Notes under the pieces: generated by a model | The model's input: the letters and a program-made list of their open reading frames with translations, nothing else | What the model was told of the DNA's origin: nothing | Databases searched by the model: none | Shown: piece by piece, positions 1 through 10,112 of the stretch | Layout: each line of letters opens with the position of its first letter | Numbering within the stretch: position 1 is the first letter of the stretch | Translations under genes and position numbers: made by a program | Source: Palleronia caenipelagi | Lineage (GTDB): Bacteria; Pseudomonadota; Alphaproteobacteria; Rhodobacterales; Rhodobacteraceae | DNA: 64,000 nucleotides | Assembly (NCBI RefSeq): GCF_007004065.1 | Contig: NZ_VFSV01000005.1 | Span: forward strand, 5,351-69,350 | Reading direction: 5' to 3'

Positions 1-763
1 ATGAGTGCGGGCGTCTTTCGTTGTAGTAGCTGATCCAGTCACCGATCCCGTCCCGGGCTTCGGAACCTGTTTCGAAGGCGTTCAAGTAGACGCATTCGTA
101 TTTGAGGGATCGCCAGAGCCGCTCGATCATCCGGTTGTCGATCCAGCGGCCCCGGCCATCCATCGAGATTTTGATCTTTGCGTCGCGCAGCACGTCGGTG
201 AAGTCGGTGCTGGTGAGTTGGGATCCTTGATCGGTGTTGAAAATCTCGGGGGTGCTGTATCGAGCCAGCGCTTCTTTCAAAGCCTCGACGCAGAACCCCG
301 CGTCCATGCTGTTCGAGAGCCGCCAGCTCAGCACCTTCCGGCTGTGCCAATCCATGATGGCCACGTGATAGAGAAACCCCCGGCGCATCGGGATGTAGCT
401 GATGTCAGCACACCAGACCTGGTTAGGTCGGGGGATGGGTAAGTCCTTCAGAAGATATGGATATATCTTGTGCTCCGGGTGCTTCTTGCTGGTCTTCGGT
501 TCCTGGTAGATAGGCACCAACCGCATGAGCTGCATCAGCCGCCGCACACGATGTCGGCCGCATTTATGTCCCGCGCGAGCCAAGTGCCGGACCATCTGGC
601 GTGAGCCATACCATGGCGTCTCGAGGAACTGACAATCGATGATTTCCATGAACTTCAGGTTCTCGGGGCTTTCCCCACGCGGCTGGTAGTAGAGGGTTGA
701 GCGTGCCAGTGACAGCAGGCTGCATTGCCGTCGGACGCTAAGATCGGGATGGTCTTTCTTCAC
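1..763 (-). pseudogene. IS3-family transposase OrfB, separated from orfA by an insertion and cut by the window edge
   Basis: Read on the minus strand from a GTG at 763, the frame begins VKKDHPDLSVRRQCSLL, then has IS3 OrfB landmarks: an IDCQFLETPWYGSRQM segment, WCADISYIPM (first catalytic Asp), FNTDQGSQLTS (second Asp) and, at the window start, the terminal GDWISYYNERRPHS. It encodes the DDE integrase half of an IS3 transposase, normally made as an OrfAB fusion by -1 frameshifting. The partner orfA lies 8.9 kb away on the same strand, so this copy can no longer make a fusion protein. The reading frame looks intact as far as the window shows; the C-terminal end is outside it. Confidence 0.9.
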
Positions 764-765
764 CG
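1..765 (-). mobile_element. 3' part of an IS3-family insertion sequence
   Basis: This holds the orfB half of an IS3 element whose orfA half is at 9674-10016. Joined across the intervening Mu-like element, the minus strand reads through GGCAAAAAGCGGTGAAGAAA. OrfA then ends in a TGA directly after GGKKR, and a -1 shift on the A5G run continues into OrfB as KKAVKKDHPDLS, as expected for this family. That exact restoration is the evidence for one interrupted IS rather than two unrelated fragments. The outer end lies beyond the window. Confidence 0.85.
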
Positions 766-857
766 TGCAGCTCGCCGTCGGAGAATTGCTCCACGACCGA
801 TGCGAGGTGCTGGGGCCGGGGGCGCATGGCGAGGGCTTGGGGGTTCTGTGAAGTGCC

Positions 858-868
858 ACTTAAGGATT
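858..868 (+). repeat. Terminal transposase-site-like motif, left copy
   Basis: ACTTAAGGATT lies about 92 bases inside the left end of the Mu-like element. The same 11 bases occur inverted near the right end, and both are followed by a TTCCC string. This arrangement suits MuA-type end-binding sites, which in Mu are asymmetric between left and right. Binding is inferred from position only. Confidence 0.45.
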
Positions 869-1031
869 TTCCCTCGCCGTCACCTATGGAATGTTCTTAG
901 ATCATCCATCTGGTGACGCAAGATGCTGATAAATATAAAACATCTAAAAAGTCGTGGTTCGTTAAAGCAACATTCTGGAAATTAACGTAAGCTATTGAAA
1001 ATATCAAAGTTATGGTCTGTTGTAAGGCTGT

Positions 1032-1547
1032 CTAGCGAACTGTGTCACGCAATCCATCCTTCGAGAAAAATTCGTCGTGAACCAACACCTGAAAAGCGCC
1101 TTCGATATCCTGATACATTTCTTCGTATTTAAACGCGGAATCTTGAAGGGAAATGTGCTCTGGTATTGTGTCATCAACTCTGACGTCTATGTCGCTTAAT
1201 TGTTTGAGCGCACTCTCATATCGCGCGTCAAACGCACTATTTAAGAACCTACCAACTGTAAAAAACACTCGTTGATCCTTTGTGACATTTTGAAAATCCC
1301 TTATCATACGCATCAATGCGAGACATTTAGCGAGCTCTTCTAGATAGCTTAGGCGTGCCTTCGGAATCTCTCTGTATTTTAACAGATCTTCATGATGCGC
1401 AGGTTGATATCTGTTAGGAACTCTGCCCCGTCTTCTCCAAGCGCCGATGGCGCTCTTACCGAGCTGTAATGCCGCAGCTAGATCTGTGTCTGTTTGGACA
1501 CTGTACAGCGCCTTCAATGCGGTAATAGTCTCTTCCACGTCGTCCAC
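1032..1547 (-). CDS. Phage CI-type repressor with N-terminal helix-turn-helix
   Basis: A 171-residue protein whose N-terminus (residues about 15-45, including TDTDLAAALQLGKSAIGAWRR) matches the CI-repressor helix-turn-helix pattern of 186/Mu-like phages. The C-terminal half is acidic, with no recognisable peptidase motif, and is probably an oligomerisation region. It is transcribed away from the Ner/MuA operon across an 80-base gap that contains inverted repeats, the standard lysogeny-switch layout. Expected role: repression of the transposase operon. Its base composition is clearly more AT-rich than the flanking chromosome, as is the untranslated stretch 870-1030. Confidence 0.75.
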   Translation of the reverse strand: MDDVEETITALKALYSVQTDTDLAAALQLGKSAIGAWRRRGRVPNRYQPAHHEDLLKYREIPKARLSYLEELAKCLALMRMIRDFQNVTKDQRVFFTVGRFLNSAFDARYESALKQLSDIDVRVDDTIPEHISLQDSAFKYEEMYQDIEGAFQVLVHDEFFSKDGLRDTVR

Positions 1548-1560
1548 TTTGTCACCTCTT

Positions 1561-1629
1561 GAATTCCACTTTGTAGACTGTTAGTGTTGCAAAGTGCAGA
1601 GTACGCACTGTAGCGGAAAAATGTGGAAT
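1561..1629. promoter_or_regulatory. Probable early operator region between repressor and ner-like gene
   Basis: This divergent gap holds two nested inverted repeats: ATTCCAC (1563-1569) with GTGGAAT (1623-1629), and CACTTTG (1567-1573) with CAAAGTG (1590-1596). They cover both start regions and are the natural candidates for binding by the CI-like repressor, the Ner-like protein or both. No convincing sigma-70 boxes could be fixed by eye. Confidence 0.5.
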
Positions 1630-1825
1630 GCAGAAGCCTTCGCCTGAACTTTTAAGAAGTGTGCGCGCGTCGTTGGTGGAACGCGGAACTTCGCTAAATG
1701 CGTTCTGCATTAAGCATGGGTTTGTTCGGCAGGCTGTCACGCAGGCTCTGTCCGGCGAGCGCTGTGGCCCAAAGTCAGTGGCATTGGCTCAGCGTTTCCT
1801 TACAGCCGTGGGCATGATCGAATGA
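1628..1825 (+). CDS. Ner/Cro-like small DNA-binding protein
   Basis: A 65-residue protein with one helix-turn-helix-like stretch (residues about 20-45: TSLNAFCIKHGFVRQAVTQAL), the size and position of Mu Ner. In Mu, Ner turns down early transcription and the repressor promoter; the same job is inferred here. Its stop overlaps the MuA start by four bases (ATGA), so the two are translationally coupled. The start codon overlaps the last arm of the operator-like repeat, suggesting autoregulation. Confidence 0.65.
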   Translation: MQKPSPELLRSVRASLVERGTSLNAFCIKHGFVRQAVTQALSGERCGPKSVALAQRFLTAVGMIE

Positions 1826-3828
1826 CAACGCCGGTAATCATACCGTTACGCGCTGTTGCAGACGCTTCACAAAGGTCCCTGCGCGGCCTTCAAAAGGCGG
1901 CAAAAAATGGACATCGATGGTCCGGTTTTGATCTCCCTTTCGTTCAAATGAACGATACTCAGCGAGACTCCTCGCGTCGTCGTTGGGCACTCGACCTATC
2001 GCGGGCTTCGTCAGAGTTTCTTGACGCATTTCCGGCACTGAGATCGCACCTCGCCCCTAATAATGTCGACGTTTCAAGAGACCGCTCATCCAAGGTCGAA
2101 CCTTGGCGGTTGCGGGTTCAATCAGAGCGCTTTGACATTATCCGACCTGCCATTGACACGCCGCCCCGCTCGGCAGAGCGGGCAGCCGCGCTGAAGCTGA
2201 TCGCCAGTAAACCGATCAATTATCGGGGCAAGCCACAAAAGCTGACCGTCAAGGCATTGCGGGGCTGGTTGCAAGCCTATGAGCAAGAGGGCCTGATCGG
2301 CTTGACGCCGAAGGCTAACGGCCAACCCGGCAAAGTCCGTGTTTTGGTTAGTCGAGCTTGGGATCATGAGATCGATTTACCAGACGATGTGCGGGTCGAG
2401 GTCGCCAAAAAGGTCGCCGCTGACGCCCGCAGTATGATGGCGAATGACGGGGTTTCGCAGCGCGAGGTTTTGCGGCTGTCCGGGCAGCGATTAGCGCGCC
2501 ATTGCGCGGAACACGGGTCAAAGCTGCCGTCTTCGAAGCTAAAGCAGATCTGTAGGCTGAATGCCAAATGGGCCGACCGTGCCGGTTTGAAACAGTACGC
2601 ACTGGTTGCAACCCACGACAAAGATCACAAGGCTTTTCAAGACGCCGAAGTCGCCCGCATTCGCCGGGATCTGCACTCTACTCCGATGGGATTGTTGATC
2701 GGGGATGTCCACTATGCGGACATTCTTGTCGAAGAGGAAGCCGAACCTGTCCGCGTTCGCCTGATTGCTTGGCTGGATGCGTCCAGCCTTTTCGCATGGG
2801 TCACACCGGTCTTCCTATCTAAAGGTAAGGGCATACGACAAGAGGATGTGGCAGCCTCGCTGGCGCAAGTTGCCATGTGCCCGCACGGTGGAATACCGCA
2901 GGAATTCTACCTCGATAACGGCTCCGAATACGGCCAGATCATGCCCTCAATGGGACGGCTTGCCGTCCTGGCTGACCGTGAATTCAAGGTTACGCTGGCC
3001 CGCCCATATAGCCCGACCTCGAAGGGAGAGATCGAAGGCTTTTTCGGCATCCTTGAGCCGATTTTCAAAGGCTTGCCGGGCTGGATTGGAGGCGACCGGA
3101 CCAACAAGAAGACCGCCAACAAAGGTAAGGTGGTCGAGCCTTACAAACGAGGGCTCGATCATTTGGCACAAGACATTCTGGCTGCGGTCGCAATCTACAA
3201 TGACAGGCCACAAACCGGGCGTTTAAACGGCCTCTCACCGATAGAAATGTTGGAGCGCCGAATAGATGAGACCGGCTTTGTCGCCCGCGTCCCCAGCGAG
3301 CGCGCATTCGATCTCATGTTCAGCAAATCCGAGACCCGCAAAATCCGGCAAAGCATGATCGAATATGATCACCGCCAGTGGTATTGTCGCGATCTGGCAA
3401 AGCTCCCGGCAGGAACGCGTGTCGAGATCCTCATTCCGCTACGCGGCGTCTCTGACCTTCTCTTCGTGCGTCACCGGGATCTGGGCGACGGCTGCTGGGT
3501 CCAGCCTGAGCAGATTTATCAGCATGGCGACAGAGATGGTGCACGCCGCCAGTCGGAGTTGGAGCGGCACAAGAAAGATGTCGTGCGCGCTCTGAGGCAG
3601 CAGATCGACCCGACAATCTCAACATTCGAGTTTCAAAAGCAGGCGATTGAGCGGATCGCGCCGAACGCGCCATCCCCTGAATTCTGGACGCAGGCCATCG
3701 ACAAGACGGCGGTGCCGCCCGGCCCGGCCGAGATTGAAGCCGATGAAGACCAGAAGCGTCGAGCGGAGATTGAAGACTTCCTTCGCCACTACCGCGCGGG
3801 AGAAGAGCGAAGGGCCGGTGAGACGTGA
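1822..3828 (+). CDS. Mu-type DDE transposase (MuA)
   Basis: A 668-residue protein, essentially the length of Mu A (663). The central catalytic core shows the DDE triad: Asp near 295 in LIGDVHYAD, Asp near 365 in YLDNGSEYG, and Glu near 405 in KGEIEGFFG. The N-terminal third is basic and should carry the end-binding domains; a Mu-type C-terminal domain follows, with a charged tail likely to contact MuB. The product cuts the element ends and joins them to target DNA. No frameshift or stop interrupts the frame, so the enzyme may be active. It is coupled to the Ner-like gene upstream and followed 55 bases later by MuB. Confidence 0.93.
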   Translation: MTTPVIIPLRAVADASQRSLRGLQKAAKNGHRWSGFDLPFVQMNDTQRDSSRRRWALDLSRASSEFLDAFPALRSHLAPNNVDVSRDRSSKVEPWRLRVQSERFDIIRPAIDTPPRSAERAAALKLIASKPINYRGKPQKLTVKALRGWLQAYEQEGLIGLTPKANGQPGKVRVLVSRAWDHEIDLPDDVRVEVAKKVAADARSMMANDGVSQREVLRLSGQRLARHCAEHGSKLPSSKLKQICRLNAKWADRAGLKQYALVATHDKDHKAFQDAEVARIRRDLHSTPMGLLIGDVHYADILVEEEAEPVRVRLIAWLDASSLFAWVTPVFLSKGKGIRQEDVAASLAQVAMCPHGGIPQEFYLDNGSEYGQIMPSMGRLAVLADREFKVTLARPYSPTSKGEIEGFFGILEPIFKGLPGWIGGDRTNKKTANKGKVVEPYKRGLDHLAQDILAAVAIYNDRPQTGRLNGLSPIEMLERRIDETGFVARVPSERAFDLMFSKSETRKIRQSMIEYDHRQWYCRDLAKLPAGTRVEILIPLRGVSDLLFVRHRDLGDGCWVQPEQIYQHGDRDGARRQSELERHKKDVVRALRQQIDPTISTFEFQKQAIERIAPNAPSPEFWTQAIDKTAVPPGPAEIEADEDQKRRAEIEDFLRHYRAGEERRAGET

Positions 3829-3883
3829 TTGGCGTCTACTCTCATCGGCCCTTCTGGATGCAACCCTGTCAAAGGATTGAGCC

Positions 3884-4669
3884 ATGACAGACTTACCAGA
3901 CATACCTACCATTGAAACGGCGGTTTTCGCAATATTGCGAGACGTCATTGGCGACGTTCTCACCGGTGCCGGGCTCGCAATTTGCCGTGGCCCGGTCGGC
4001 ATTGGAAAGAGCTTCGCGCTTCGTCGGGCCATCGCCGAGTGTGAAAAGGCCGGGGCACTTGTGACCAGCATCACGGCTGCTGGATCATGCCAAGGCAAGA
4101 TCGCAGAATTCCTGAGGGCGCTGCACGGTCGTGAGGGCGTATCGAGCGCCGAGGGCCTTGAACTCGCTTTCGGAATGCTCGCGGGCTATCCCTTCCGACC
4201 CTACGGGCAAAAATCGGTTCTGATCGTGGACGAAGCACAGGACCTTGCTGCTCCGATCATTGGGCAGCTCCGGGGTCTCTGGGATCGGGGCGATCTGGCA
4301 AGACTAGGCGACGAGTGGTGCCCTGCCTTCGGCATCGTCATGGTAGGCAACGACCAGTTTCTGAGCAATGGAACGCGCAAAGAGCGTGTCGATCTTCTGC
4401 CTCTTTGGGACCGTATCACACACAACATTCGCCTGCCCCGCCCATCGGCTGCTGAACATGCCGCCCATGCTGGTGCGCTCTTTCCGGGCGACAGCGCGGA
4501 GGTGAAAGACCTGCGAGCGATGGTCCAAGCCTTTGGAGAAGATCGCGGCAGTCTGCGCGCGGCTGCAAAGGCGGCGAGACAGGCCAAGATCCGGGCTGAG
4601 CAAGACGGCAAGCCCGTTACAGCCGATCACCTCGCTTTTGTCATTCGCATGATGGTAGGCCAGTCATGA
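3884..4669 (+). CDS. Mu-type transposition ATPase (MuB)
   Basis: A 261-residue AAA+ ATPase. Walker A is GPVGIGKS at residues 36-43 and Walker B is VLIVDEAQ with Asp116-Glu117. In Mu, MuB forms ATP-dependent filaments on target DNA, recruits MuA and mediates target immunity; the same role is expected from its place directly after the transposase. The stop overlaps the next start (ATGA). At 261 residues it is somewhat shorter than Mu B (312), as is usual for alphaproteobacterial relatives. Confidence 0.88.
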   Translation: MTDLPDIPTIETAVFAILRDVIGDVLTGAGLAICRGPVGIGKSFALRRAIAECEKAGALVTSITAAGSCQGKIAEFLRALHGREGVSSAEGLELAFGMLAGYPFRPYGQKSVLIVDEAQDLAAPIIGQLRGLWDRGDLARLGDEWCPAFGIVMVGNDQFLSNGTRKERVDLLPLWDRITHNIRLPRPSAAEHAAHAGALFPGDSAEVKDLRAMVQAFGEDRGSLRAAAKAARQAKIRAEQDGKPVTADHLAFVIRMMVGQS

Positions 4670-4998
4670 CCTTCAATGTGAACTCCGGACGCATGCTCGA
4701 TACTGATCGGGAGATTTTCGTGACGCTGACCTTGAAGGCTTCGGACCTTGAGAACCTTCGTAAAGTGGTGGGCGATCTTGAGGCCTACCCGGATGTGGTG
4801 CGGAGCCATATTGCCACGATTGCGGGTCTCTTTGAACCGACTGAACTCACGGCTGACTTCGGAACAAAGCTCGCTGAGGCGGTGAAAGCGCTGCAACTTG
4901 ATAACGAGCGCGCATCGACCCTCGCCACCATGCTCGTGCCTTACGTGCGGAGCGCGACGATCTCAGACCCTGCCGGACAAAAAGGGAGGCTGTCATGA
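4666..4998 (+). CDS. Small early-region protein of unknown function
   Basis: A 110-residue protein overlapping the MuB stop by four bases and the next start by four, so it belongs to one early operon. It is soluble and mostly helical in appearance, with no cysteine pairs or membrane segment. The central part (LKASDLENLRKVVGDLEAYP) could be a short coiled coil. I do not recognise the family. Mu-like phages commonly carry short accessory genes of this kind between B and gemA. Confidence 0.6.
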   Translation: MTFNVNSGRMLDTDREIFVTLTLKASDLENLRKVVGDLEAYPDVVRSHIATIAGLFEPTELTADFGTKLAEAVKALQLDNERASTLATMLVPYVRSATISDPAGQKGRLS

Positions 4999-5417
4999 CT
5001 GATGGACATCTCACGGATCACGAGTGGAGACTGAAAATGGCTGCCGACGAAAGCGCAAGCTACGTACCCGGAAAATCCTTCGAGCAGATCGAGATCGAAA
5101 GAAAGGCGGAGGCGAAGCGCGATGCTGAATTCGTCAGTCTGGAGCTGTCTCGCGGAAACGCGAAGACCGCAGCCCTCCACATCGACAGGCAACACGATCT
5201 TCTTTTTGAGGCGGGAGAAGCGATGCGGTTTCTCGAAAACGCGGTGCGGTGCGGGATTTCAACCGACTATGACGCAGGTTTCGCTGCAATCCTGTCACTT
5301 TGCAGCATGACGCTCCGTGATCGCTATGAAGAGATGGAACCGACCATGCGCCAGCTCACTCGCGCGCTTCAAGATTGCACTGCGTCTCGCAAAGAGAAGG
5401 AAGCAGAGCCATGCTGA
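4995..5417 (+). CDS. Small early-region protein of unknown function
   Basis: A 140-residue, charged, probably all-helical protein. The N-terminal half is rich in Glu, Lys and Arg (KSFEQIEIERKAEAKRDAEF) and looks like a coiled coil. It overlaps both neighbours, so it is co-translated with them. No motif identifies it; position between MuB and gemA suggests an accessory replication/transposition role, which is inference only. Confidence 0.6.
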   Translation: MTDGHLTDHEWRLKMAADESASYVPGKSFEQIEIERKAEAKRDAEFVSLELSRGNAKTAALHIDRQHDLLFEAGEAMRFLENAVRCGISTDYDAGFAAILSLCSMTLRDRYEEMEPTMRQLTRALQDCTASRKEKEAEPC

Positions 5418-5821
5418 GCAACAAGCAGAAGGCGGTGTTGCATATCGCCAAGACCAAGCTGAACCTCAACGATGCCGCGTATCGGTGTGTTCTGGTTGAA
5501 TTGGCGGGCGTGACGAGCGCGACTGAGATGGATCAGGACGGGTTCAACACCGTCATGGGGTATTTCGAATGGTGTGGCTTCGCGCCCATGACAGCCAAAG
5601 GGCAAGACTATGGGACCCGGCCCGGCATGGCGAGCTTCGCCCAGCTTGAGCTGATCCGCACGATCTGGCGGGAATACACTCATGGCAACTACGGGGGCGA
5701 GGCTGAGCTGAACAAATGGCTCTTTCGCACCTTCAAGCTGTCAAGCCTGCGGTTCATGACCAAATCGCAGGCACAGAAGGCCATCACCGCACTGAAGGCC
5801 ATGAAGGCGCGGGCAGCCTGA
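5411..5821 (+). CDS. gemA: Mu gp16-like regulatory protein GemA
   Basis: A 136-residue protein of the GemA/gp16 (DUF1018) family: N-terminal LSNKQKAVLHIAKTKLNLND, a central AELAG-like segment and a C-terminal helix bundle ending KAITALKAMKARAA. In Mu, GemA modulates expression of host genes, including those affecting supercoiling. The ATG at 5411 is chosen because the conserved family start MLSNKQK falls there and it overlaps the previous stop. It is the last gene of the early operon; a strong terminator follows within 25 bases. Confidence 0.82.
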   Translation: MLSNKQKAVLHIAKTKLNLNDAAYRCVLVELAGVTSATEMDQDGFNTVMGYFEWCGFAPMTAKGQDYGTRPGMASFAQLELIRTIWREYTHGNYGGEAELNKWLFRTFKLSSLRFMTKSQAQKAITALKAMKARAA

Positions 5822-5841
5822 TCGATACCAATTCGTCCAGA

Positions 5842-5868
5842 GGGCGGCGCATTTGCGCCGCCCTTTTT
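5842..5868 (+). terminator. Rho-independent terminator of the early operon
   Basis: A perfect ten-pair GC-rich stem (arm GGGCGGCGCA, 5842-5851, with its complement ending at 5863) around a two-base loop, followed by TTTTT. It closes the MuA-gemA operon, so the downstream cargo and head genes need their own promoters. Confidence 0.85.
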
Positions 5869-6184
5869 ACGTCTGGCGGGGCCATCCAATCCAACAGTGT
5901 TTAAATTCGCCGGAGCGCTTTCAAAAATGCCCTTCTTGCCTTGCAGTGCAGGGCAACAACCCTCGATCCTGATAGGCTCTCAGCGCGCCGCTCAGAGCCT
6001 CTGGCGAGCCCGATCAGCTTCTCTTGGCGCTATTTCGCTGAAGAAACATCTACCGGTCTCGGTAGCAGCATCACCCGTTATCATGACCGGCATCATTGTC
6101 GGTCGTGCGGACGAAGCTGAGTTTCCGACAGACGCGGACAATGAACGCTTTTCACCAAACGTCCGATGCCGTATTTCTCTATGC
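5869..6184. other. Gap between early terminator and the HNH cargo gene
   Basis: About 315 bases with no gene I can support. A GTG-initiated extension of the following frame runs through it, but it lacks a ribosome site and reads like low-complexity translated DNA. It probably holds the promoter of the cargo gene; no clear sigma-70 boxes were found. Confidence 0.4.
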
Positions 6185-6838
6185 ATGGAAAACCGTGACG
6201 ATTTTAGAGCTCCCGTTAAAAGAACAATTGCGCAACGTGCAGGTTACCGATGTTCAAATCAAACCTGTATGCGCCCTACCATTGGACCAGACGGCGCCGA
6301 CGAAAGTGCCAGCATTGGTGTTGCCGCGCACATTACTGCCGCTGCTGAAGGTGGGCCTAGGTATGATCCCAATTTGACTGCCGAGGAACGAGCCGCTGCC
6401 GAAAATGGTATTTGGCTCTGTCAGACTTGTAGTAGGCTGATAGACGTGGATGTCACCAGTCATTCCATTCATCAGCTTAGAGAGTGGAAAACCCTAGCCG
6501 AGATGCGTGCATATCTAGGCATACGCGGATTTGCAGTTGTAGTGTCTCGGAGCTTTCAGAAGCTTGAAAACATGATGCCAAACCTAGTAGCGGAAATGCG
6601 GGATGATTTAACTAACGAGCCATTCGTTCGTGAATTCATCATTGGTTCCAAGAACTGGTCCTACAATGGTGACCCGAAGAATCCCATTTTCTCTTATTAT
6701 TTTGAAGACCACGACAACTTGAAGTCGATGCTGAAAGTGATGCAAAATTACGACGCGATCATTGAAACTACGTACAACAATGCCGACCGATTTGAGTTTA
6801 CTGAAGACTTCGCAGAATTCCTCTTACTGCCCGTTTAG
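6185..6838 (+). CDS. HNH-type nuclease-like cargo protein
   Basis: A 217-residue protein from the ATG at 6185 (MENRDDFRAPVKRTIAQRAG). The N-terminal half has a zinc-binding HNH-like pattern: two cysteines in YRCSNQTC, a conserved IGVAAHITAA segment holding the likely catalytic His, GGPRYD, then NGIWLCQTCSRLID with a second cysteine pair. This arrangement is known from defence-associated and restriction-type HNH proteins. The C-terminal 100 residues are unrecognised. It stands alone behind the early terminator, is more AT-rich than its neighbours, and has no counterpart in Mu, so it is probably a moron that alters phage susceptibility. An upstream GTG at 5897 is possible but unconvincing. Confidence 0.7.
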   Translation: MENRDDFRAPVKRTIAQRAGYRCSNQTCMRPTIGPDGADESASIGVAAHITAAAEGGPRYDPNLTAEERAAAENGIWLCQTCSRLIDVDVTSHSIHQLREWKTLAEMRAYLGIRGFAVVVSRSFQKLENMMPNLVAEMRDDLTNEPFVREFIIGSKNWSYNGDPKNPIFSYYFEDHDNLKSMLKVMQNYDAIIETTYNNADRFEFTEDFAEFLLLPV

Positions 6839-7103
6839 CTCTATTACTCAAGATTCACATTCAGGCGGAGTTGCCCGCCCGTTGTATCTGTTTTCTGAAA
6901 GCGGCCTTTAGCTGGACCGGAGATAATCGGTAGTGAGCGCTCGCTGCCGCCATTCACCATGCTACCTCTGGTAATCTTATGCCCTGCCTTAGCATGGCAG
7001 ATGATCTGACTGCGACGGCATGATGCCTTGCTGAATACAGCACTCATGGTTTGCCCGTGTAGTCCTTCACCCGGCAGTCCGAGGACTCGGGGAATATGTT
7101 CCT

Positions 7104-7511
7104 GTGAAGAACAGCAGGAACAAGCCCGTGTCGTCATCCAACTGCATCACCGAGCACCTGATCGCGCTCAGGCAACAGCAAGGGCCTGACGCGGAGCGCT
7201 TGCTGATGGAGAATTTTGCGGGCGGACGGCACTACATCCCGCGTCGAGAAAGTGCGAAATTCGAGCGCCTGTGCGACCTCATCGGCGAGCCCGCCGCGAC
7301 CTATCTCGCGGATTGCTGTGGCGGCTTCGAATGGGACTTTCCTTCCCAAAGGACATACGATCTCCGAAAGCACCGTGCAGCGATCCTTTCTGATCTGCGA
7401 AACCCCGACCTCACCCTGAACGATGTGGCCTTGCGCAACGGCATTTCCCGCCGTTGGGCGAGTATTCTTCGTCAACGGGGCAACGTTTACCCACCCAAAC
7501 AGGACCCCTGA
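7104..7511 (+). CDS. Mor-like transcription activator
   Basis: A 135-residue protein resembling the Mor/C activator family of Mu. Residues about 50-75 (LCDLIGEPAATYLADCC) correspond to the Mor dimerisation region, and the C-terminus (TLNDVALRNGISRRWASILRQ) is a helix-turn-helix. Mu Mor switches on middle transcription, and C activates late genes. The stop lies one base before the start of the head gene, so regulator and capsid are one transcript. The start used is a GTG preceded by little ribosome-site signal. Assignment to Mor rather than another activator is moderate. Confidence 0.6.
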   Translation: MKNSRNKPVSSSNCITEHLIALRQQQGPDAERLLMENFAGGRHYIPRRESAKFERLCDLIGEPAATYLADCCGGFEWDFPSQRTYDLRKHRAAILSDLRNPDLTLNDVALRNGISRRWASILRQRGNVYPPKQDP

Positions 7512-7512
7512 C

Positions 7513-8406
7513 ATGCTCAACAACAATGCCGCAATTGACGCGCTCTTCACCAGCTTCAATGCAATCTTCAACGACATTCACAGTGCCGCACCGACCTATT
7601 GGTCGCAGGTTGCCATGGAGGTTAAATCCACGGGCTCGGATGAAGCCTACGGCTGGATGACCTCACTGCCGCAGCTTCGGGAATGGATCGGTGAACGACA
7701 TATCGCGACCGCACAGGCAGCCGCCTACGTGATCAGGAACCGCAAATTCGAGCAGACCATCCGGGTATCGCGAGAGGACATCGAGGACGATAAGGTCGGC
7801 ATATATGCTCCGATGGTTCGGATGATGGCTCAGGCGGCTGCCAGCCACCCCGACGAACTGATCTTCCAACTGATGCGGGACGGCTTTGAGAAACCGGGCT
7901 TCGACAATCAGCCGTTCTTTGATGCGGATCATCCCGTGCGGGACAAGGACGGAAATGTCGCTTCGGTCTCGAATTTCGGCGCAGGAACGGAACCCATGTG
8001 GTTCCTTCTGGACACGACGAAGGCGGTCAAGCCGTTTATATTCCAAAAGCGGATCGGCTACACACCGCAGCGCCTCACCAATGATAGTGACTCGCGGGTC
8101 TTCACCAAGGATGAATTCCTCTACGGCACAAGGGCGCGGGTCAATGCCGAGTTCGCGCTGTGGCAACTGGCATTCGGATCTAAGCAGGCTCTGACTGCGG
8201 AGACATACGCCGCAGCCCGGCAAGGGATGCAGTCGATCAGACACGATGGCGGGCGGATCATGGGTGTTATGCCGAACCTCCTAGTTGTCGGTCCGGAAAA
8301 CGAGACCGCCGCGCGCCAGATCCTGAAGGCCGCGCGGATCAACGGATCTGACAATATCTGGGCTGACAGCGCAGAGCTGATCGTCACGCCGCATCTGTCG
8401 GAGTGA
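7513..8406 (+). CDS. Mu-like major head subunit (gpT)
   Basis: A 297-residue protein of the Mu gpT capsid family. Recognisable segments are the N-terminal LNNNAAIDALFTSFNAIF, the GWMTSLPQLREWIGER block at about 45-60, DNQPFFDADHPV near 140 and the C-terminal PNLLVVGPENETAARQIL. It should form the HK97-fold shell of the phage head and is full length with no interruption. In Mu the protease/scaffold gene precedes gpT; here gpT comes first, directly after the Mor-like gene. Confidence 0.9.
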   Translation: MLNNNAAIDALFTSFNAIFNDIHSAAPTYWSQVAMEVKSTGSDEAYGWMTSLPQLREWIGERHIATAQAAAYVIRNRKFEQTIRVSREDIEDDKVGIYAPMVRMMAQAAASHPDELIFQLMRDGFEKPGFDNQPFFDADHPVRDKDGNVASVSNFGAGTEPMWFLLDTTKAVKPFIFQKRIGYTPQRLTNDSDSRVFTKDEFLYGTRARVNAEFALWQLAFGSKQALTAETYAAARQGMQSIRHDGGRIMGVMPNLLVVGPENETAARQILKAARINGSDNIWADSAELIVTPHLSE

Positions 8407-8410
8407 GCAG

Positions 8411-9079
8411 ATGTCCGACAGGATTGAAGCTCTCCCTTCTGATCTGCCCGCGTTACCGGCTGCGGGTGTGCCGGACGTATCCGAGGTTCAGCTCCTGCCC
8501 GCCGGACCAATCCGCCCGAAGGATGGGCGCGGCCCATGGTTTGTGCGCAATACGGCTGCCCTTCTGGCGGCGTCCAATGCCGCACTTGGCCGGGGCGTTC
8601 CTATCGATCTGGATCATGCCATCGACCTGGGAAAGAGCACCGCAGCGGCGGGCTGGGTCCGGCGCTTCCGGGCGAAGTCCGATGGAAGCATCTGGGCGGA
8701 TATTGAGTGGACCCCGATGGGAAAACGCAGGCTGGAGGACCGCGAATACCGTTACATCAGCCCGTCATTGGTGGTGAGCGAGCGTGACGGCACCGTCTTG
8801 CGGATTGACCGCGCAGGGCTGACCAACACGCCAGCGTTAGAAATGCGGGCGCTTTGCGCAGCCGGTCCTGAGGCCGAAAGCGATCAAGAGACAAGTGAGA
8901 ACCGCCGGGTTGTCTCAGAGCTGATTGCTGCGGGTCACATTCGTTCCGAAGACCGTCAGATGGCAATGGACCTCTGCGCAGTCAGTCGCGCTGCGCTAGA
9001 GGCTTGGGTCCGGTCCAAGCCCGGTGCACCGGCCAAGGATCTGTTTAAGGACTACCGCCGAAGCGGTGTTTTCGCCTGA
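8411..9079 (+). CDS. Mu-like head maturation protease/scaffold (gpI)
   Basis: A 222-residue protein matching the gpI family of Mu-like phages: early VQLLPAGPIRPKDGRGP, then VPIDLDHAIDLGKSTAAAGWVR with the His expected in the active site, EWTPMGKRRLEDREYRYISPSL (Ser) and ALEMRAL near the middle. It should cleave itself and the head proteins during procapsid maturation. Mu gpI is about 360 residues; the missing part corresponds to the C-terminal scaffold segment, which is short here. It starts four bases after the gpT stop. Confidence 0.85.
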   Translation: MSDRIEALPSDLPALPAAGVPDVSEVQLLPAGPIRPKDGRGPWFVRNTAALLAASNAALGRGVPIDLDHAIDLGKSTAAAGWVRRFRAKSDGSIWADIEWTPMGKRRLEDREYRYISPSLVVSERDGTVLRIDRAGLTNTPALEMRALCAAGPEAESDQETSENRRVVSELIAAGHIRSEDRQMAMDLCAVSRAALEAWVRSKPGAPAKDLFKDYRRSGVFA

Positions 9080-9181
9080 GGGCGGCGCGACGGAATACCG
9101 GGTGATCAGGGTGGAACCCGGTGCCCTGCGGCGGGATCATGGTCGGGCCTGTCGCAGGGCAAATTTGATCGGAGGGGCGTC

Positions 9182-9559
9182 ATGGACAACGCAGTAAACG
9201 ATGACATCGAGCTGCTGGAGCACCACTTGAAGGTCGCTCACACCGCCTTTGAACAGGGCTTTAAAGCTCTTGAAAAGGCTTCATCCGAATTGGCGAAAAT
9301 CAGGTCTGCGATTCGACAAGTGAATATTGGCAGTTTACCGCCTTGCTCTGTTCCTGTCACTGAACACCGACGCCAACACAAATCCGGGCGCCCCTCAAAG
9401 ATCAATAATGACCCTGAATTGCAGGCGTTTATACTTGCGCGAATAGACCGGATGACATTCGTTGAATTGGCCTCCGCTGTTGCAGACCATTTCCCGCCAT
9501 CGCGCCGGGTCGGGAAAAGCGCCATTCACGCATGGTACCGACGGCAGGCGCGTGACTGA
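9182..9559 (+). CDS. Small coiled-coil and helix-turn-helix protein at the right end
   Basis: A 125-residue protein preceded by a good ribosome site (GGAGGGG, 6 bases upstream). Residues 1-45 form a likely coiled coil; after a basic hinge (HKSGRPSKINNDPEL) the C-terminal 50 residues (MTFVELASAVADHFPPSRRVGKSAIHAWYRR) look like a DNA-binding helix-turn-helix. Similar small proteins occur in alphaproteobacterial Mu-like phages, with no settled function. As the last gene before the right end it might bind the end or regulate head genes. Confidence 0.6.
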   Translation: MDNAVNDDIELLEHHLKVAHTAFEQGFKALEKASSELAKIRSAIRQVNIGSLPPCSVPVTEHRRQHKSGRPSKINNDPELQAFILARIDRMTFVELASAVADHFPPSRRVGKSAIHAWYRRQARD

Positions 9560-9633
9560 TCTGCTGTCCTGCTATTGATCCAATGCCCGACCCGTCACGG
9601 ATCAGCGCGGGACTTCCGGGGTAGTCCGGGAAC

Positions 9634-9644
9634 AATCCTTAAGT
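9634..9644 (-). repeat. Terminal transposase-site-like motif, right copy
   Basis: The inverted counterpart of the ACTTAAGGATT motif at the left end, about 29 bases inside the right end. The unequal distances (92 and 29 bases) resemble the asymmetric L and R site layouts of Mu. Confidence 0.45.
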
Positions 9645-9673
9645 AACAGGCACAAAACATAGGTTACACCACA

Positions 9674-9980
9674 ACCGCTTTTTGCCTCCAGTGCCGGGGA
9701 TGAGACTGGAGGCTTCCAACAAAAAATCCCGTTCCACGACCAGCTGCCCGATTTTGACGTGCAGCTTTCCGACCTCTGCCGCCGATATCGTCGGCTCCGC
9801 GGTCGCCTGGCCGGTGAAGGCCTGTGCCATGTTCTCAATCGCGGTCCGTTTCCAGCCGCTGATCATGGTAGGCTGGATGTCATACTTCTTGGCCAGCTCG
9901 GCCGTCGTCAGCTCCTCGCGGATGGCTTCCAAAGCCACCTTCGCCTTGAACTCTGCAGAATAGCGTTTCCGTTTCGTCAT
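9674..9980 (-). pseudogene. IS3-family OrfA, cut off from orfB
   Basis: The minus-strand frame starts MTKRKRYSAEFKAKVALEAI, the canonical helix-turn-helix N-terminus of IS3 OrfA, and reaches the leucine-zipper region KLHVKIGQLVVERDFLLEAS and the slippery site in GGKKR. Real IS sequence ends there; in the present molecule the frame runs on for 12 residues into the Mu-like element and stops at 9639. OrfA normally binds the IS ends. Because orfB is 8.9 kb away, this half may act only as an inhibitor, if it is made. Confidence 0.85.
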
Positions 9981-10016
9981 TTCTGTGCGTTCTTCCTCAG
10001 ACACTACAGATTAGCA
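9674..10016 (-). mobile_element. 5' part of the interrupted IS3-family element
   Basis: This contains orfA and the upstream end of the IS. The outer end is placed near 10016, where the minus strand reads TGTAGTGTCTGAGG, a TG-starting terminus a short distance before orfA. The other IS terminus is outside the window, so the inverted repeat cannot be confirmed here. Confidence 0.65.
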
Positions 10017-10112
10017 CCCGGTCCGAAATCCCGCGACCACCTCTATATGAGGCGAACGGCCAAACGAAGCTGAGCAAATCGCGGGGTGCCCGTGCCAGCA
10101 CCCCGCAACCGG

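Follow-up and report, generated by a model that had tools for sequence, protein, structure and literature searches.

Compact Mu-type transposable elements of Rhodobacterales that keep capsid and protease genes: candidate helper-dependent phage satellites

A 64,000-nucleotide stretch of the Palleronia caenipelagi genome (contig NZ_VFSV01000005.1, positions 5,351 to 69,350; hereafter the window) carries a Mu-like element that encodes a transposase, a major capsid protein (gpT) and a capsid protease (gpI) in under 9 kb, which raises the question of what use an element of this size makes of phage head genes. The element is a discrete mobile unit with a conserved gene set and gene order and with selection on gpT and gpI, and it lacks a portal and a large terminase. 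With moderate confidence, we propose that it belongs to a group of compact (~7.5-9.3 kb), Mu-type transposable, helper-dependent satellites of Rhodobacterales, which make their own head and borrow portal, terminase, tail and lysis functions from a phage.

The element splits a copy of an IS3-family insertion sequence (IS), and two intact copies of that IS, L114 in genome G005 and L115 in the element's own genome (identity to the split copy 84-83% and 77-78%), align up to base 765 and resume at 9674. Since these copies are unbroken across the insertion point and their alignment halves overlap by exactly ACCG, positions 766-9673 are a clean insert with a 4-bp target duplication. The preliminary description of this DNA had placed an ~8.9-kb Mu-like element at exactly these coordinates, while ends guessed by eye near 851 and 9640 were discarded in favour of those set by the intact IS copies. 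A MuA/MuB module, TG...CA ends and a short target duplication are traits shared with Mu-like phages. A megablast search found no near-identical copy of the element on plasmids. The halves of the split IS occupy positions 1-765 and 9674-10045 of the window, and this IS has about twelve other close copies in the same genome.

The genes run in the order repressor (on the opposite strand), Ner-like, MuA, MuB, two small open reading frames (ORFs), GemA, HNH, Mor-like, gpT, gpI and o125 (Table 1). The repressor, Ner-like, MuA, MuB, gemA and Mor-like genes named in the preliminary description are all present according to Pfam or PHROGs, with weak matches for the first two, and the HNH gene at 6185-6838 and o125 at 9182-9559 are additions to its list.

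Table 1. Features of the element and its flanks (window coordinates; HTH, helix-turn-helix; aa, amino acids).
Feature	Coordinates	Strand	Evidence
Whole element, 8,908 bp	766..9673	+	TG...CA ends; two intact IS3-family copies as reference
Target duplication, left copy, ACCG	762..765		Comparison with intact IS3-family copies
Target duplication, right copy, ACCG	9674..9677		Comparison with intact IS3-family copies
CI-like repressor, 171 aa	1032..1547	-	PF07022 0.002, below cut-off (weak); position
Ner-like HTH, 65 aa	1628..1825	+	phrog_925 8.2e-6 (weak)
MuA-type transposase, 668 aa	1822..3828	+	phrog_310 E=1.1e-30; Pfam rve only below cut-off
MuB-type ATPase, 261 aa	3884..4669	+	phrog_296 1.7e-20; AAA_22 4e-9
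Small ORF, 110 aa	4666..4998	+	No Pfam/PHROGs match; weak relative in L089
Small ORF, 140 aa	4995..5417	+	Weak relatives in L029, L087, L097
GemA, 136 aa	5411..5821	+	PF06252 1.5e-22
Cargo HNH nuclease, defence type, 217 aa	6185..6838	+	PADLOC PDC-M68A 4.4e-23; SAVED-HNH 4.5e-16
Mor-like late activator, 135 aa	7104..7511	+	phrog_836 1.7e-9; PF08765 below cut-off
gpT major capsid protein, 297 aa, complete	7513..8406	+	PF10124 1e-112 over 2-289 of 289; phrog_371 2e-111
gpI protease with shortened scaffold part, 222 aa	8411..9079	+	PF10123 6e-36 over first half only; phrog_328 2.8e-41
o125, compact-family marker gene; long N-terminal helix, C-terminal HTH	9182..9559	+	Profile; AlphaFold2 model

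gpT is complete, as had been claimed. The same claim for gpI holds for its protease half, which keeps His69 and Ser117 (the His and Ser are invariant in 107/107 rows of the gpI alignment, from which rows beginning after model position 45 were dropped), and fails for its scaffold part, from which about 62 consensus columns are gone in frame. The gpI of compact relatives is mostly 290-316 aa long, compared with a median of 337.5 aa in phages (range 292-384, n=82, gpT rows under 85% of the model having been dropped beforehand; the ranges overlap). This short scaffold suggests that the compact elements would build small heads. An alternative is that their DNA is packaged together with host DNA into full-size, helper-like heads by a headful mechanism, with the element's own gpT serving to evade helper control and no small heads being made. 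Headful packaging, which leaves host DNA at both ends, is how Mu itself fills its heads. The gpI scaffold, shorter in compact elements than in phages, would nevertheless fit small heads, although the length ranges overlap, and we consider packaging into full-size heads distinctly improbable.

The retained structural genes were catalogued with 29 gene-family hidden Markov models (HMMs) built from full-length Mu-like phages, a set that is incomplete for tail and lysis genes. Only gpT and gpI matched in the window element. Across 23 compact elements, gpT matched in 22, gpI in 21, the decoration protein in 5 and gpG in 4, while portal, large terminase, gpF, adaptor, sheath, tube and small terminase matched in 0/23. 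Of 86 phage contigs searched as a positive control, many of them truncated, 46 matched the portal model and 44 the large-terminase model. Among all ORFs of the window element, there are no lysis or remaining tail genes and no room left for them. The absence of terminase, portal, tail, tape-measure and lysis genes noted from the outset is confirmed for the window element by HMMs and ORF reading together. Mu-like phages carry terminase, portal, tail and lysis genes; the element instead has the general character of a satellite, a discrete and conserved mobile element without a full set of virion genes. Two related elements in Rhodovulum encode a tape-measure protein of 627 aa (L203, 7496-9379; L212, 7504-9387; PHROGs 4.9e-61 and 1.6e-59), compared with 1231 aa in phage RS1. 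L212 keeps gpT and L203 has neither gpT nor gpI, the latter suggesting a sub-lineage that remodels tails. The structural genes kept by the family (gpT, gpI, decoration protein, gpG and tape measure) are thus ones that shape the head, the head-tail joint or the length of the tail.

This set of genes bears on two other explanations. The preliminary description had offered, as an alternative to a satellite, a transposon using a capsid-like shell, in which gpT would form an encapsulin-like compartment. A gpT and a protease without portal or terminase could be read in this way, but encapsulin-type systems have an HK97-fold shell without phage maturation genes, and here a protease with invariant His and Ser adjoins gpT. 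Because protease/scaffold, decoration, gpG and tape-measure genes occur together in compact elements, and with a Mor-like late activator also retained, we regard such a shell as very improbable. The second explanation is interference, whereby gpT and gpI would join the helper's coat or scaffold and either poison assembly or force mixed small heads, with the HNH protein as a further defence. Satellite coat proteins that form pentamers alongside helper hexamers are described in the available text of PMC10945586, and both the scaffold-shortened gpI and the lone half-length tape measure of L203 would suit such a role. Compact gpTs, however, reach only 40-47% identity with those of known phages, and a protease, scaffold and decoration protein together exceed the needs of a poison, so that interference appears rather doubtful.

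The satellite reading gains from recurrence. A gpT search of 146 relatives brought up L028 and L029, which belong to other genera and have the same compact gene set, and, following matches to an o125 profile, 34 further stretches were examined for gene layout. The layout ner-MuA-MuB-small ORFs-GemA-(Mor)-gpT-gpI-(Mor)-o125 recurs among them, with complete-looking sets in the window and in L028, L029, L087, L088, L089, L092, L093, L094, L095, L097, L098, L196, L206 and L208. The same genes in the same order are hence found at many loci. Hosts were named for 24 loci and include Roseobacter, Maritimibacter, Ruegeria, Marivita, Rhodovulum, Sulfitobacter, Paracoccus, Cereibacter, Pseudogemmobacter and further Rhodobacterales; complete-looking elements are present in, for example, Maritimibacter fusiformis HY14, Ruegeria sp. 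PrR005 and Roseobacter sp. HKCCD6576-2. L198 and L208 come from two metagenome bins, one labelled as Erythrobacter and one as Verrucomicrobiales, reflecting either a host jump or misbinned contigs. One genome, G455, has four compact-type gpT places (L084, L102, L103), and in L102 IS21-type transposase and ATP-binding genes are inserted in the MuA region.

Relatives of the element also bear marks of transposition. An end motif (left TGA.GG..TTCA..., right strand TG......TTCA...), together with pair alignments, gives exact ends; both motifs were found in seven elements, with a perfect 5-bp duplication in 7/7, and the addition of L095, L203 and L212 brings to ten the other elements with exact ends and perfect 5-bp duplications, against 4 bp in the window element. 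As each element offers 2-13 candidate 5-bp duplications (L116: 0), the ends were chosen by the shared motif or, for L203 and L212, by aligning the pair. L221 and L222 were skipped in the motif scan for lack of MuA, L085 has no clean duplication and L089 has the left motif only. Sizes of elements with exact ends are 7,496-9,274 bp, except for L102, which contains transposase-like genes and measures 10,815 bp, and L203, at 6,716 bp and lacking gpT and gpI.

Selection was compared using Nei-Gojobori ratios of nonsynonymous to synonymous substitution rates (dN/dS), which are approximate, dS being high in most pairs. Values were 0.12-0.30 for gpT (7 pairs), 0.29-0.39 for gpI (5 pairs) and 0.15-0.40 for MuA (5 pairs, a sixth being saturated); between the window element and L089 they were 0.22 for gpT and 0.33 for gpI. 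Both gpT and gpI thus look to be under purifying selection no weaker than that on MuA. The preliminary description had named as the outcome that would count against a satellite that all homologues be full-length prophages, the window element being unique and selection on its gpT and gpI relaxed; this is not what we find. L089 and L093 have 80% of gpT in common, compared with 35% of MuA, and the transposition module is swapped more freely than the coat.

Gene order and gpT sequence separate the compact elements from phage-type loci. When a profile of 14 compact gpTs was run on 394 genomes of the family with a threshold of 455 bits, 20 places in 18/394 genomes scored at least 455, followed by a gap down to 412. 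Taking one locus per genome, gpT precedes gpI in 18/18 of the upper group (the window and 17 others), and gpI precedes gpT in 10/10 resolved loci of the lower group, with one unresolved. Among 385 genomes of the class, the window has the only locus with gpT before gpI; the other resolved loci have the opposite order (12/12), two of them in the element's own genome. The order gpI before gpT, a trait of Mu-like phages, is likewise found in 74 of 80 viral contigs (74/75 resolved; 5 are without gpI), and one 7,766-bp viral contig, L116, is itself a compact element with o125. A gpT tree was built from 24 compact rows and 96 others (the latter being all rows not labelled compact, many of them cut contigs); in it, the compact rows fall on one side of a branch with support 91/93, which recurs in 92% of 200 bootstrap trees.

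A degraded prophage, the deletion remnant of a Mu-like phage, would account for the clearly decayed state of some copies and for the shortened gpI of the window. Such a remnant would not be expected to share with others a derived order of gpT before gpI, an o125 gene, a narrow size range, exact ends and constraint on gpT and gpI, and it is contradicted by the recurrent intact layout; moreover, the window MuA, despite its PHROGs profile match, has no relative at 1e-5 in 50,697 phage records (tblastn). We therefore give decay from a phage very little credence as the origin of the element.

In favour of the satellite reading, phage-type gpT is commoner in genomes with a compact element, 5/18 against 29/376 without (Fisher p=0.013, a test that ignores relatedness), the deletion derivative G247 not being counted as phage-type. 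Contig C106 of the element's own genome contains two gpT loci in phage-type order about 41.7 kb apart (L036-L038), which are likely Mu-like prophages and possible candidate helpers.

o125 serves as a marker of the compact family: its profile found relatives in 32/394 family genomes, and tblastn with one o125 protein found none in 50,697 phage records. The AlphaFold2 model (predicted local distance difference test score, pLDDT, 91.7; predicted template modelling score, pTM, 0.47) begins with a long helix and has its HTH at the C-terminal end. All 29 phage families were scored against o125, of which the small terminase was best (31.3, E 3.6e-4, probability 36.8%) and the next reached 19.8; among HTH controls, MuA scored 29.7 (probability 9.3%) and a repressor set 22.3. 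With the MuA control nearly as high and no structure matches, the identification of o125 as a proven small terminase was dropped. A role in packaging specificity is a lead to which we give about one chance in three.

Putting these observations together, we propose the following for the satellite. It would integrate, and probably replicate, by its own MuA and MuB, as can be reasoned from Mu, and would be kept quiescent by its own repressor. After induction, gpT and the protease/scaffold gpI would supply the satellite with a head of its own, and it would take portal, large terminase, tail and lysis functions from a co-resident or infecting Mu-like phage, most plausibly a siphophage. The short scaffold here, and the decoration protein, gpG or half-length tape measure of relatives, would remodel head size, the head-tail joint or tail length, and o125 may direct the helper terminase to satellite DNA. 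A more specific version, in which these are an old, separate satellite family that transposes replicatively, builds small heads of its own and hijacks from Mu-like siphophages only their portal, packaging motor and tail, some sub-lineages instead bringing a short tape measure that resizes the helper tail, is tentative, and we put it a little short of even. The transposable satellite with a small capsid and a Mu-like helper that the preliminary description envisaged is strengthened by recurrence, exact ends and selection, while its capsid size, packaging and helper remain matters of inference.

Several observations weigh against this proposal. Packaging, particles, virion formation, a small head, helper use and the role of o125 are things we infer, the element being known here from its genes. 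Many copies are damaged or internally deleted (L082, L084, L085, L100, L101, L103-L105), MuA is split in L102 and L107, and the gpT of L096 carries a stop. Genome G009, of the same genus, holds several decayed compact copies, 85-97% similar (L030-L035, L108, L109), which are the product of a past transposition burst followed by decay; an earlier view of the G009 gpT as a divergent half-length coat was rejected for this reason. As about 62 columns retained by its relatives are gone from the window gpI, this copy may be impaired. At 91, support for the branch in the tree falls short of the 95 customary for ultrafast bootstraps, and no full-length gpT of phage type shows up in 13/18 of the genomes that carry a compact element. 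The link of o125 to terminases is weak (probability 29-37%, with the MuA control at 29.7 against 31.3), and Foldseek comparison of its model with PDB and BFVD returned nothing at E 0.001 or less.

Several known systems resemble the compact family in part. Rhodovulum phage RS1 and Thiobacimonas phage vB_ThpS-P1 have repressor, MuA/MuB, GemA, Mor/late activator, gpI, decoration and gpT families in common with it, but are ~39-40 kb long, carry terminase, portal, tail and lysis genes, and have the order gpI-dec-gpT. Satellites of the SaPI, P4, PLE and EfCIV583 types are, like the compact elements, small and alter head assembly, P4 and EfCIV583 by way of one or two proteins that redirect the helper coat. 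Capsid-forming phage-inducible chromosomal islands (cf-PICIs) use an integrase; the window element has a Mu-type transposase in place of a site-specific one. In the accessible text of PMC12409344, satellites of this kind act on the helper coat through one or two redirecting proteins, whereas the window element encodes a complete coat and protease. cf-PICI and cf-PISP elements, as far as the available portions of PMC13230959 and PMC12409344 describe them, encode capsid, portal, protease, head-tail adapter and terminases. The compact family is like them in being small, in encoding a capsid and a head maturation protease of its own while lacking tail genes, and in having a capsid clade apart from phages and defence-like or HNH genes, and differs in the lack of portal, adapter and terminases (0/23; o125 resembles a small-terminase HTH weakly) and in moving by a Mu-type transposase. 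It is thus not a cf-PICI, though by analogy it may work similarly. Mulch and Flayer, phage-like satellites of Streptomyces, encode encapsidation machinery and, in the accessible part of PMC10690885, no replication genes; the compact family likewise encodes encapsidation genes but keeps those for transposition.

Full-text literature searching, with subscription papers mostly outside its reach, gave no precedent for a Mu-type satellite. Satellites in the cited literature, in its available parts, are chromosomal islands or plasmids, so that a Mu-type transposon satellite without portal or terminase would, if true, represent a new way of life for them. Such elements would also let nature show which parts of the head are exchangeable between phage and parasite, and how scaffold and tape-measure length set virion size. 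Public annotation labels such elements as prophage pieces (gpT family names); the order gpT before gpI together with o125 offers a simple marker for finding them.

Finally, the HNH gene of the window element has no NCBIfam match for its protein and was not found in the other compact elements searched. The region that contains it is low in G+C (0.46-0.52), and the gene is probably anti-phage cargo.

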